DNA of 64,000 nt from NCBI RefSeq assembly GCF_036250735.1, contig NZ_CP109430.1, positions 4,402,001-4,466,000 of the forward strand, in the 5' to 3' direction. Shown one piece after another: positions 48,026-52,012 of the stretch (position 1 is the first letter of the stretch; every line of letters starts with the position of its first letter). This DNA is from Streptosporangium sp. NBC_01495. Lineage in GTDB: Bacteria > Actinomycetota > Actinomycetes > Streptosporangiales > Streptosporangiaceae. Position numbers and translations under genes: made by a program. Below the pieces are notes generated by a model that had not been told where the DNA came from, ran no database searches, and saw only the letters and a list, made by a program, of their open reading frames with translations.

Positions 48026-48141
48026 GGTCACGCTCTTTTCCGTAGGTGGTTGGATGCCTCCAGCCTGCCGGGCCTGAATGAGCATCCGGTCAGCGCGCTA
48101 CCGTGGCCAGGGGCGATGTCCCGGGAAAGGACGGTCACGGG

Positions 48142-50157
48142 GTGCGGGTCGTGTTCGGGGTGCTGGGGCCGGTGACGGCCTGGGACGCTGCCGGGGGCGC
48201 GATCGCCCTCAAGGGGCCGCGGCACCGCGAGGTGCTGGCCCGGCTGATCGTCGCCCGCCGCCGCGTCGTCCCGATCACCGGCCTGGTCGAGGACCTGTGG
48301 GACGATCCGCCCCCCGGCGCGGTGGGCGCGGTGCGCACCTTCGTGGCCGCGTTGCGCCGCGCGCTGGAACCCGAGCGCCCTCCCCGGACCCCGCCCCGGC
48401 TGCTGGTCACCGAGGGGCCGGGGTACGCGCTGCGCGCTGAGCCGGGCGCGGTGGACGCCTGGCGCTTCGAACGGGTGGTCTCGGCCGCCGCGACGCTGCC
48501 TCCCCAGGACGGGCTCGCCCAGCTGGCCGAGGCACTGGGGTGGTGGCGCGGGCCCGCCTACGCCGAGTTCGCCGGCCAGGCCTGGGCCGGTACGGAGCGC
48601 GCCCGCCTGGCCGAGATCCGGTTGCACGCCGTCGAGCGCCAGGCCGAGATCCGGCTCGCCCTCGGCCTGGCCGCCGAGGCGATACCGGGACTGGACGCGC
48701 ACGTGGCCGAGCACCCCTGGCGCGAGGACGCCTGGCGGCTGCTGGCACTCGCGCTGTATCGCACCGGCCGCCAGGGCGACGCGCTCGCCGTCCTGCGCCG
48801 GGCACGAACGACGCTGGTTCAGCAGCTGGGGGTGGATCCGGGCCCGCCCCTTCGCCGCCTGGAGACCGACATCCTCCACCACGCCGGTCACCTCGACCTC
48901 GCATCCGGCCCCGGCGGGGCGGCGGCCCGGGTATGGGCGCAGACGGCCGCCGTCTACGACCGCACGGTGACCTCCGGTGCCCGGGCCCGGTTGGAGTCGA
49001 CGGTGGGTCTGCTGCGCAGCCTCGCGGTGACCGGCGGCAGCGGCCTGGAGGCCGCCCGCCGGCACCGCCCGGCGGCCATCGCCGCCGCCGAGGAACTGGG
49101 TGACGCGGAACTGACCGCCCGGGTGATCGGCGCCTACGACGTACCGGCGATCTGGACCCGCTCCGACGACCCTTCGCAGGCGGCGCGCGTCGTGGCGGCG
49201 GCCGAACGCACCCTGGCCGCCATTTCGCCCGGCGCGCACGAGGCGGCGCGGGCCGGCCTGCTGGCCACGATCGCCCTGGAGTCGCGCGGCACCCGCTCGG
49301 CGCGCGGCCCGCAGGCCGCCCGCCAGGCCGAGGAGATCGCCCGCCGCCTGGACGATCCCGCACTGCTGGCGTTCGCCCTCAACGGCGTGTTCATGCAGAC
49401 CTTCCACCGCGCCGGCCTGGCCCCGCGCCGGGACGAGATCGGCGCCGAGCTGGTCGCCCTGTCCACCCGGCACGACCTGGTGACCTTCCAGATACTCGGG
49501 CACCTCATCCGCGTCCAGGCCCGCGCCGCGCTCGCCGACTTCCCCGCGGCCGACCGGCACGCGGCCGCCGCGGACCGGCTGGCCGAACGCCACGAGCGGC
49601 CGCTGGTGGGTGTGTTCACCCGGTGGTACCGGGCACTGCGGCTCACCGAGGCCGGGCGGGCACCCCTGGCCGAGGCCGAGGCGGCCTACCGCGACGCCGC
49701 CGCGCGGCTGGACGGCGCCGGCATGCCCGGCCTGGAACACGGCCTGTTGCCGCTCGCGTTGCTGTGCCTGCGCCTGCGGCACGCGCTGCCCGCCCCCGCC
49801 GACGAGCACATCGACGAGCACACCGACTGGGGCCCCTACGAGCCATGGGCCCGTCCCCTGGTGCTGCTGGCCCGAGATCGCCGTGCCGAGGCCGCCGAGG
49901 CGCTGCGCGAGGTCCCCGACCCGCCCCGCGACCTGCTGTTCGAGGCCCTGTGGTGCCTGGCCGCGCGGGCCGCGATCGCCGTCGGCGACCGGCGGACGAT
50001 GGAACGCGCGCACGGCGAGCTCGCTCCCGCGGCGGCCGAGCTGGCCGGGGCGGGCAGCGGCCTGCTCACCCTGGGGCCGGTCTCCCGACACCTCGGCGAC
50101 CTCGCCGACGCCCTCGCACACCACGACACCGCGGCCCGCCCCCGCCGGTCGCGGTGA
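48142..50157 (+). CDS. SARP/BTAD-family transcriptional activator
   Basis: The 671-aa protein has an N-terminal OmpR-like winged helix (VFGVLGPVTAWDAAG..LKGPRHREVLARLIV, residues 1-100), a bacterial transcriptional activation domain (ERARLAEIRLHAVERQAEIRL, HPWREDAWRLLALALYRTGRQGDALAVLRRAR) to about 250, and a long TPR-like C-terminus. There is no NB-ARC ATPase, unlike AfsR. Such proteins activate secondary metabolism or nearby genes, here perhaps the divergent hydrolase. GTG 48142 starts right at the domain; an in-frame GTG at 48103 is an alternative. Confidence 0.9.
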   Translation: MRVVFGVLGPVTAWDAAGGAIALKGPRHREVLARLIVARRRVVPITGLVEDLWDDPPPGAVGAVRTFVAALRRALEPERPPRTPPRLLVTEGPGYALRAEPGAVDAWRFERVVSAAATLPPQDGLAQLAEALGWWRGPAYAEFAGQAWAGTERARLAEIRLHAVERQAEIRLALGLAAEAIPGLDAHVAEHPWREDAWRLLALALYRTGRQGDALAVLRRARTTLVQQLGVDPGPPLRRLETDILHHAGHLDLASGPGGAAARVWAQTAAVYDRTVTSGARARLESTVGLLRSLAVTGGSGLEAARRHRPAAIAAAEELGDAELTARVIGAYDVPAIWTRSDDPSQAARVVAAAERTLAAISPGAHEAARAGLLATIALESRGTRSARGPQAARQAEEIARRLDDPALLAFALNGVFMQTFHRAGLAPRRDEIGAELVALSTRHDLVTFQILGHLIRVQARAALADFPAADRHAAAADRLAERHERPLVGVFTRWYRALRLTEAGRAPLAEAEAAYRDAAARLDGAGMPGLEHGLLPLALLCLRLRHALPAPADEHIDEHTDWGPYEPWARPLVLLARDRRAEAAEALREVPDPPRDLLFEALWCLAARAAIAVGDRRTMERAHGELAPAAAELAGAGSGLLTLGPVSRHLGDLADALAHHDTAARPRRSR

Positions 50158-50353: not shown

Positions 50354-51685
50354 TCACGGGGTCAGGCGGTGCAGGTCACGGGGGAACAGGGTGGCGCGGC
50401 GGATGTTGTCGGCCCCGGTCAGCCGGGTGGTCCACCGTTCCAGGCCGAGGGCGAAGCCGCCGTGCGGGGGCATCCCGTGCCGGAAGGCGGCGAGATAACC
50501 GGCGTACGGCTCGGGTGATTCGCCGCGGGCCGCCAGGGCCGCGAGGTAGTCCTCGTGGCGATGCAGGCGCTGGCCGCCGGTGACGAGCTCCAGGCCGCGA
50601 AAGAGCAGGTCGAAGCTGTTGGAGTACTGCGGCCTGCCGGGCTCGGGGTGGGTGTAGAAGGGGCGTTTGGCCATCGGGTAGCCGGTGACGAACAGGAACT
50701 CGCTGCCGTGCTCGCGCAGCGCCCATCGCGACAGCCAGCGTTCGTGGGCCGGTGCGAGGTCCGGCTCACCCCGGGGGTCCTCGCCGGTGTGGGCGGCCAG
50801 GAGCTCCTGGGCCTGGGCGAAGTGGATCTCCGGGATCCGTTCCGGGACGTCGGGCAGTTCGACCTCCAGCAGCGCGCACGCCTCGCCGGCGTGCCGTTCG
50901 ACGGCGGCCGTCATGCCCGCGAGAACCTCGCGCAGCACGGCCATCACCTCCCGGTGGTCGGTGACGAAACCGAGCTCGGCGTCCAGCGAGGTGTACTGGG
51001 CCAGGTGCCGCGCGGTGTCGTGGGGCTCGGCGCGGAAGACCGGGCCGGTCTCGTAGACGCGCTCGAAGACGCCGACCATGGCCTGCTTGAAGAACTGCGG
51101 CGACTGGGCCAGGTAGGCGCGGGTGCCGAACCAGTCGATCCCGAAGACGTTGGCGCCGGACTCGGTGGCCGAGGCCACCACCTTGGGCGTGTGGATCTCG
51201 GTGAAGCCAAGCGCGTCCAGCGTCGTACGGAAACCCGCCACCGAGACCGCGGAGATGGCGTGGGGTGCCCGCAGCAGCGGGTGGCGCAGGGCGACCGGGG
51301 CGTGGTCGAGGATGGTCGGCAGGGTGGCCGCCACCGAGGGACGGTAGAGGTCGAACGGCGGGGCCGCGGCCGGCCCCGACAGGGCGGTCACCACCGGGGA
51401 GGTCACCTCGGCTCCGCCGGGGGCCTGGGGGTTGGCGGTCACGGTCCCGGTGATCTGCAGGACGGTCTCTTCGGGATGGCCGCCGGCCTCGGCCATGGCC
51501 TCGGGGTCGGTGACCACGGCCTGGATGAGGCCGGAGCGGTCCCGCAGGACGAGGAAGACCACGGATTTCAGGGTCCGCCTGCGGTGCAGCCAGCCCTGGA
51601 CGGTCACCTGCCGGCCTGTTCGCCGCGGAAGCTCCGCGGCCAGGACCCGGCAGACGGGTGGAACGATTGCGGATGAGGAGATCAT
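50354..51685 (-). CDS. aspS: aspartyl-tRNA synthetase, archaeal/compact type
   Basis: The 443-aa class II synthetase has an N-terminal OB-fold anticodon domain (VTVQGWLHRRRTLKSVVFLVLRD), motif 2 in ETGPVFRAEPHD, and motif 3 in GGFALGLERWTTRLTG then NIRRATLFPRDLHRL. It lacks the large GAD insertion of the usual ~590-aa bacterial AspRS, so it is of archaeal type and may charge tRNA-Asp and possibly tRNA-Asn. ATG 51685 has AGAGG 6 bases upstream. A T-box leader with an Asp (GAC) specifier lies immediately upstream, so expression should rise when tRNA-Asp is uncharged. Confidence 0.92.
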   Translation of the reverse strand: MISSSAIVPPVCRVLAAELPRRTGRQVTVQGWLHRRRTLKSVVFLVLRDRSGLIQAVVTDPEAMAEAGGHPEETVLQITGTVTANPQAPGGAEVTSPVVTALSGPAAAPPFDLYRPSVAATLPTILDHAPVALRHPLLRAPHAISAVSVAGFRTTLDALGFTEIHTPKVVASATESGANVFGIDWFGTRAYLAQSPQFFKQAMVGVFERVYETGPVFRAEPHDTARHLAQYTSLDAELGFVTDHREVMAVLREVLAGMTAAVERHAGEACALLEVELPDVPERIPEIHFAQAQELLAAHTGEDPRGEPDLAPAHERWLSRWALREHGSEFLFVTGYPMAKRPFYTHPEPGRPQYSNSFDLLFRGLELVTGGQRLHRHEDYLAALAARGESPEPYAGYLAAFRHGMPPHGGFALGLERWTTRLTGADNIRRATLFPRDLHRLTP

Positions 51686-51689
51686 CACA

Positions 51690-51944
51690 AACCTCTGGTC
51701 AGTGAGTGGTGATCCCTTGGGAGTGCGGGCGAGAAGGGAACTCGCGGTGCCACCGCACTTTCACCGCCGTGACGACGGCGGCCTCGATGGGCCCGGTGAC
51801 GGGGGCCGGCCGGCGGGGCATTGGGCGCGGACGCCTTTTCTCCCCGCACTCGGGAGGGTCTTCGTCACCGGGGACAGGTCCGCCTTCGCAGCTGCCGGCG
51901 GCTCTCTCCTGCCTGCCCTGATCCCGTGACTACTCGTCTCCGTC
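51690..51944 (-). promoter_or_regulatory. T-box riboswitch, Asp (GAC) specifier, upstream of aspS
   Basis: On the minus strand the leader has the T-box parts in order: stem I start GACGGAGACGAGTA (AGTA loop-E half at 51931-51934), AGGAGAGAGCC (AG bulge, about 51900-51910), then CGAAGAC where GAA is followed by the specifier GAC (51858-51860), with GTCACGGG pairing back to CCGGTGAC. The T-box bulge TGGCACC (within 51743-51754) lies in an antisequestrator: AGTGCGG pairs CCGCACT and CGAG pairs CTCG. TGGC would pair the GCCA end of tRNA-Asp. GATCAC can pair with GTGATG at the start codon, suggesting translational control. Confidence 0.8.
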
Positions 51945-52012
51945 AATGCGTTGCCGAAAGGATACGCGTGCACCGCCGCGTATCGCAATGATCGACGCCA
52001 CCGGGCCGCCGG

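Follow-up and report, generated by a model that had tools for sequence, protein, structure and literature searches.

A predicted tRNA-Asp-binding T-box leader upstream of an accessory archaeal-type aspartyl-tRNA synthetase gene in Streptosporangium sp. NBC_01495

A leader that is almost certainly a T-box riboswitch was found in the genome of Streptosporangium sp. NBC_01495 upstream of aspS2, a gene for an archaeal-type aspartyl-tRNA synthetase (AspRS). The DNA analysed, a 64,000-nt stretch of the contig NZ_CP109430.1, is referred to below as the window, and the coordinates of the leader and of aspS2 are window positions on the minus strand. The leader (51722–51955) contains stem I, stem II, a stem IIA/B region, stem III and an antisequestrator, and aspS2 follows at 50354–51685. 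We put at roughly 60% the probability that this T-box, with tRNA-Asp as its predicted ligand, controls aspS2 and that the gene encodes an accessory, probably non-discriminating AspRS.

When the window was searched with Infernal, the T-box model RF00230 matched the minus strand from 51955 to 51722 over all of its positions (1–219 of 219) with 52.8 bits and E = 7.6e-11. The T-box proposed in the initial annotation is thus backed by a significant match, though one that scores under the RF00230 gathering score of 93, and for this reason a default Rfam scan of the window was empty. In the whole 11.1 Mb genome (E up to 0.001), the leader was the better of two RF00230 matches (E = 4.4e-10). The other is found upstream of a gene matching ileS across the 486 residues tested; the Asp T-box therefore occurs in addition to one of the familiar actinobacterial type. 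As a single sequence, the leader did not fold with exceptional stability (z = −1.33; 20 of 200 shuffles were equally stable or better), and the evidence for a T-box therefore comes from the model match and from comparison. A chance resemblance, which the score under the gathering cut-off and the unremarkable fold would allow, was rejected and has a negligible probability, since the core recurs at 78 of 80 homologous loci (the best 80 of 413), its pairs show two-sided changes and the GAC specifier is constant among the leaders.

The sequence elements named in the initial annotation (AGTA, AGAGAG, GAA followed by GAC, and the TGGCACC bulge between two helices) were found at the places given for them. 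Stem I (51853–51941) is of the long form, with AGTA at 51934–51931, AGAGAG at 51907–51902 and the distal sequence GCUGCGAAGG, and two-sided changes were seen in it in an alignment of 46 rows. The specifier GAC, an Asp codon, is located at 51858–51860 and is preceded by GAA at 51863–51861. Stem II (51813–51847, GCGGGG/CCCCGC) was predicted by RNAalifold from 46 leaders, with two-sided changes in 0 of 6 pairs. The stem IIA/B region (51786–51812) contains CCGUCA, aligned to the CCGUUA block of RF00230, and stem III (51763–51782) shows two-sided changes in six of its seven pairs. The antisequestrator (51722–51759), recognised from the sequence, RF00230 and the 46-row alignment, carries the 7-nt bulge UGGCACC (51752–51746), flanked by the helices AGUGCGG/CCGCACU and GCGAG/CUCGC, and the apical loop UUCCCUU (51740–51734). 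Downstream of it are an element with a putative regulatory role, designated Q (AAGGGAUC, 51711–51718), for which the apical loop and the start region are alternative potential partners, and a putative sequestrator region (51678–51696), which comprises the Shine-Dalgarno-like AGAGG (51696–51692) and the start region GUGAUGAUCUC and could be covered by Q. As to the extent of the element, given initially as 51690–51944, the RF00230 match begins 11 bases upstream of 51944, and the predicted start-region pairing passes 51690 by 12 bases.

In order to compare homologous leaders, a collection of species genomes was scanned with the window protein by a pattern-based procedure, which gave 413 relatives, and the best 80 were fetched. 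The T-box core was found upstream of 78 of these 80 genes, in addition to the window. One further core, at locus L052, is visible by eye though the pattern missed it, and inspection by eye of the region upstream of L035 revealed no clear core. Leaders from Nonomuraea have a variant helix in the core; an earlier, narrower pattern had found the core in 49 of the 80 only. RNAalifold predicted 56 pairs from the 46-row alignment. For 27 of them, at least one row is changed on both sides of the pair; stem I, stem III and the antisequestrator are among the parts that contain such pairs. This alignment did not include the leaders missed by the first core pattern or those of L056, L083, L086 and L087. 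The model alignment of 57 rows consisted of the window, whose row was 6 bases short, plus 56 rows from a list of 65, from which L082, L087 and near-identical rows had been excluded beforehand.

The Asp specifier claimed at the outset held across the homologous leaders. At the first reading it was GAC in 48 of 48 leaders, two more core-bearing leaders being uncalled; a less strict script gave calls above its threshold for 75 of 79 leaders, 74 of them GAC. The leaders under the threshold were those of L020 (a lower-scoring GAC), L056, L082 and L086. A non-GAC specifier was rejected, as the sole exception was L074, a call made from an AGCA anchor. At the variable position of the UGGN bulge, 33 of 48 leaders have C and 15 have U. 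A purine 3′ of the specifier codon is common in T-boxes and probably not obligatory. The base following GAC is C in the window; among the 48 leaders, 34 carry C and 14 carry A there, and it was A in 39, C in 35 and G in one of the wider 75 calls. A purine directly 3′ of the specifier is described as conserved in T-boxes (PMC7583486); this feature is absent from the window leader, which speaks against the T-box reading. Note that RF00230 gave no match in L096, L097, L103 and L119, where the leader model R1 matched. Because the default Rfam cut-off misses the window leader, and RF00230 fails to detect some of its relatives even when the cut-off is relaxed, the group may be larger than present counts suggest.

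The tRNA partner was sought by a pattern search rather than from a full tRNA list, and one tRNA-Asp gene of the genome was read. It has the anticodon GUC and a G after the acceptor stem (discriminator G73), so the end of the mature tRNA-Asp should read GCCA, which matches UGGC in the bulge, as was supposed from the beginning. GAC accounts for 0.94 of the Asp specifiers in TBDB (PMC7778990), and the Asp T-boxes of that database combine, like the window leader, a GAC specifier with a UGGN bulge. The leader is predicted to bind tRNA-Asp, and it is very probable that its specificity is for this tRNA.

The gene aspS2 reads from an ATG at 51685 (a GTG at 51688 is also possible) to 50354. Its protein matched NF003483 (aspartate--tRNA(Asn) ligase) with 537.5 bits at a cut-off of 353, in agreement with the archaeal-type AspRS of the initial annotation, and its score with TIGR00458 was slightly below the cut-off (352.5 versus 368.4 bits). 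Using Pfam, only tRNA-synt_2 and an OB fold were found, without the GAD insertion of bacterial AspRS. The best match among PDB sequences was AspRS2 of T. thermophilus (1n9w/3kfu), described in the entry as non-discriminating and archaeal-type. At two positions of the anticodon domain, the window protein (H35 and P90) and T. thermophilus AspRS2 both have H and P; W and K are found there in the T. kodakarensis AspRS. H was found in 79 of 80 aligned proteins (one has Y) and P in all 80; the set comprised the window protein and 79 of the 80 fetched ones (the best 80 of 413), L032 being omitted. We take H and P at these positions to be marks of a non-discriminating AspRS, and aspS2 probably encodes an accessory enzyme of the archaeal type with this predicted property.

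A bacterial-type aspS, which the initial annotation had suggested looking for elsewhere, is present at position 6247322 (708.8 bits), 1.8 Mb from aspS2. The housekeeping AspRS has H in the motif GWVARRRDHG, presumably also a non-discriminating mark. No AsnRS was found over the cut-off in the genome, the best match being aspS2 itself, and GatB is present (475.7 bits); Asn-tRNA is therefore presumably produced by an AspRS together with GatCAB, the route used by bacteria without AsnRS (PMC4206432). In a cell of this kind, a back-up AspRS would be required to charge tRNA-Asn as well, and the H/P signature fits this. Extra AspRS genes are reported mainly from Actinomycetales, most of which lack AsnRS, and an advantage in particular niches has been suggested as their role (PMC4206432).

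The neighbour clusters common to the window gene and other loci were only frames overlapping aspS2. A conserved neighbourhood or biosynthetic cluster was rejected, as all five clusters with a frame near the window gene overlap aspS2. Among the 12 largest clusters listed, those outside aspS2 were common within Nonomuraea, and one downstream cluster also occurs in L032 and L085. In the window, aspS2 is convergent with a plus-strand gene (48103–50157) that resembles SARP/AfsR-type regulators, with matches under the curated cut-offs.

On balance, the best-supported role of aspS2 appears to be that of a reserve AspRS, made only if the main one falls short. This role, raised in the initial annotation, agrees with the genome survey described below. 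The gene is dispensable as judged from genome G511, in which aspS2 has large deletions, and this was counted for the best explanation. Such a spare AspRS under a conserved Asp T-box would provide a testable synthetase back-up circuit in actinomycetes. As a special case of the reserve role, aspS2 could be an isozyme insensitive to natural AspRS poisons, with the T-box acting as a sensor of poisoning. Microcin C-like poisons of AspRS are known from diverse bacteria and a Streptomyces product hits the AspRS of Plasmodium (PMC9239234, PMC12262901); a T-box would report inhibition directly, and the module is patchy and occurs also on plasmids. The sharing of neighbours only within aspS2, and hence the lack of conserved inhibitor genes alongside, speaks against this possibility, which we regard as not very likely; the leader–aspS2 module may nevertheless be a pointer to natural AspRS poisons.

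It is rather improbable that aspS2 serves Asn supply, i.e., that it is specialised in producing Asp-tRNA-Asn for GatCAB and is raised when charging falls, as reported for a T-box of Clostridium acetobutylicum, and is not a general spare. The predicted non-discriminating residues (H in 79 and P in 80 of 80 proteins), the failure to find AsnRS, the presence of GatB and the occurrence of extra AspRS mainly in Actinomycetales, mostly without AsnRS (PMC4206432), would all suit such a function. The specifier, however, is GAC and not AAC in 74 of the 75 confident calls, and the restriction of common neighbours to aspS2 means that there is no conserved linkage to gat genes. In addition, if the H of the housekeeping AspRS is the mark we presume, tRNA-Asn is probably served already.

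For the reserve AspRS, the following mechanism can be proposed. When charged tRNA-Asp is plentiful, Q would pair with the start-codon region and aspS2 would remain untranslated. Under limitation or inhibition of the main AspRS, GAC would pair with uncharged tRNA-Asp, whose GCCA end would pair with UGGC. The bound tRNA-Asp would stabilise the antisequestrator, the loop UUCCCUU would capture Q and the start site would become free.

A terminator-like site was not found by a pattern scan of the window leader, and a TTTT or U-tract between the antisequestrator and the start was absent in 79 of 79 leaders. Since the start codon can, moreover, be covered by pairing, control of aspS2 is probably exerted at translation. 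Six or more contiguous pairs between Q and the start region (AAGGGAUC with AUGAUCUC) are possible in 71 of 79 leaders versus 48% of shuffles, five or more expected Q–start pairs were obtained in 60 of the 79 folded 3′ parts, and the start codon of the window is predicted to be paired with a probability of 0.95. Cognate Q–start partners had more favourable energies than swapped ones (p = 0.0004, a value inflated by relatedness), and pairings without a proposed role (apical loop or Q with the Shine-Dalgarno sequence) also differed from swapped ones with p of about 0.02. Two-sided changes were seen in 0 of the 7 Q–start pairs, and 31% of shuffled start regions pair with the Q of the window equally well.

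Five or more pairs between Q and the apical loop UUCCCUU are possible in all 79 leaders versus 71% of shuffles. The cognate loop–Q energies were no better than the swapped ones (p = 0.41 and 0.45 in two tests), and two-sided change was observed in one of six pairs, the same as in shuffles. The antisequestrator and the hairpin covering the start coexist in 58 of 79 predicted ensembles; therefore, pairing of the loop with Q would be the sole coupling, and its 4-nt linker looks tight. The model of a switch operated by loop–Q pairing is accordingly offered as doubtful. Pairing of the 3′ strand of the antisequestrator with the Shine-Dalgarno sequence was rejected as a general rule, since five or more pairs were found in 27 of 79 leaders versus 32% of shuffled ones; it is strong in some relatives, e.g., L032 and L043. 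The start itself shows a regularity: GATC directly follows it in 70 of 79 T-boxed genes and in one of 11 loci without a T-box (there at an unlikely start, and two of the 11 are identical). The T-boxed loci L103 and L119, which are outside the 79, have no GATC at the start.

Action through transcription termination, not translation, is an unlikely reading of the leader, although its architecture would suit it. Long stem I of the class I kind and accessory stems are typical of transcriptional T-boxes (PMC7583486), and a relative on a Paraclostridium plasmid has T-rich terminator-like ends. Against termination stand the window leader without a terminator-like site and the absence of TTTT in 79 of 79 leaders, which covers termination of the U-tract type only. 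The short or ultrashort stem I typical of class II T-boxes was not seen in the window leader, where stem I is long, with AGAGAG and a distal loop; a few translational T-boxes do retain a long stem I (PMC7583486).

Translational ileS T-boxes of Actinobacteria were reportedly described by Sherwood et al. in 2015. Compared with the actinobacterial T-boxes described on ileS (PMC1262725), the window leader is similar in phylum, bulge, antisequestrator, the lack of a terminator found and probable translational control. It differs in the predicted use of tRNA-Asp instead of tRNA-Ile, in the long stem I and in a start that would be covered by the separate element Q, antisequestrator–Shine-Dalgarno pairing being strong in some relatives only. 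The Asp leader may thus serve as a second translational platform for comparison with the ileS T-box. Archaeal-type non-discriminating AspRS beside a bacterial one is known from Thermus/Deinococcus (1n9w/3kfu; PMC4206432), as in the window genome; these bacteria have AsnRS too, and the sections of that source on AspRS make no mention of a T-box on the second gene. One of three aspS genes of C. acetobutylicum is under a T-box (PMC2494555), so that this cell, which uses GatCAB, resembles the window genome in having a T-box on one of several AspRS genes.

The initial annotation had called an Asp-type T-box unusual in this group. This holds in part only: Asp T-boxes with GAC are known (PMC7778990), and the pair of element and gene is common to several actinomycete families. 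The T-box of tRNA-dependent Asn formation in C. acetobutylicum, on which Saad is said to have reported in 2012/2013, belongs to a gat operon and has a two-codon specifier, unlike the single gene and single GAC of the window. Both the switch family and the enzyme family of the window locus are known, and what is unusual is the combination of a long stem I, probable translational control, a separate element predicted to cover the start and a spare AspRS. No description of an Asp T-box on an actinobacterial aspS2 was found in a literature search that did not extend to the TBDB file.

The distribution of the pair was evaluated in three overlapping samples of genomes. The family sample of 120 genomes yielded 39 with archaeal-type AspRS and 35 with a match of R1, and 34 genomes had both. 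In the remaining R1 genome, G511 (L096, 345–760), the T-box persists upstream of an aspS2 whose start and large parts are missing. The class sample of 196 genomes contained the protein in 19 and an R1 match in 13, of which 12 have the protein; in the thirteenth, G260, R1 matched upstream of the bacterial-type aspS. Genome G300, whose T-box and aspS2 are about 3 kb apart on one contig, was scored as T-box present, and the match in G352, obtained with filters off, reads GAA-GAC. In the phylum sample (296 genomes), the protein was over the cut-off in nine genomes and R1 matched in eight, five of these matches being near 30 bits (G069, G126, G156, G175 and G181).

When the samples were combined, 57 genomes had the archaeal type, 48 of them together with the bacterial type and nine without it. 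Of the 48 with both AspRS types, 41 have a T-box, compared with one of the nine in which only the archaeal type was found. The seven genomes with both types and no T-box found were G470, G515, G537, G529, G215, G034 and G057. Among T-box-negative genomes, G034, G057, G435, G444 and G453 were searched with the stricter filter only, and G470, G515, G537, G529, G539, G206, G237, G280, G204 and G215 with filters off as well. In a tree of 44 proteins, the products of T-boxed genes formed one clade together with the identical T-box-less L035 and G539, and eight T-box-less proteins, which lack H and P at the two positions, formed another. Clade and copy number are therefore confounded, and the difference between 41 of 48 and one of nine, though real, rests on few independent events. 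In genome G560 (L125, 99% complete), aspS2 is T-boxed and a bacterial aspS was not found, so aspS2 is possibly its only AspRS.

The leader also matched four plasmid-labelled records, namely two of one Streptantibioticus cattleyicolor strain, one of Streptomyces and an 11.85 Mb record of Nonomuraea, and on a Rhodococcus plasmid R1 matched upstream of its aspS2. On the S. cattleyicolor plasmid pSCAT (L116, 4265–5544), the aspS2 match is distributed over two frames, behind a T-box that looks intact. The plasmid of Streptomyces sp. NBC_01724 (L117, 4001–5586) has an Asp T-box and the start ATGATCCAC before an archaeal-type AspRS of the other clade, near an IS1182 transposase. This AspRS is 37% identical to that of the window and 66–70% identical to those of the T-box-less genomes G470, G515, G537 and G529, and it has N and K at the two positions. 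The presence of a different AspRS body behind a similar leader suggests that the leader and first codons are an exchangeable cassette. All this allows a broader, tentative picture: the locus could be a widespread, horizontally moving one-gene emergency module, in which an Asp T-box with its own translational switch (antisequestrator loop and start codon competing for AAGGGAUC) accompanies a non-discriminating AspRS able to stand in for the housekeeping enzyme on poisoning or failure, with leader and first codons exchangeable. We consider this picture possible, and improbable in its entirety.

Two further leaders were observed. In genome G260 (L097, 2730–2646), a leader resembling a T-box, whose stem I is apparently very short and which contains GTGACGAC, lies before the bacterial-type aspS; it is apparently an Asp T-box on a housekeeping gene. 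On the plasmid of Paraclostridium bifermentans, a T-box (119.5 bits) precedes an archaeal-type aspS, as in the window, and differs from the window leader in its T-rich terminator-like ends and its apparently tandem arrangement. By eye, two tandem antiterminator/terminator units can apparently be distinguished there before aspS (L120, 1109–1480).
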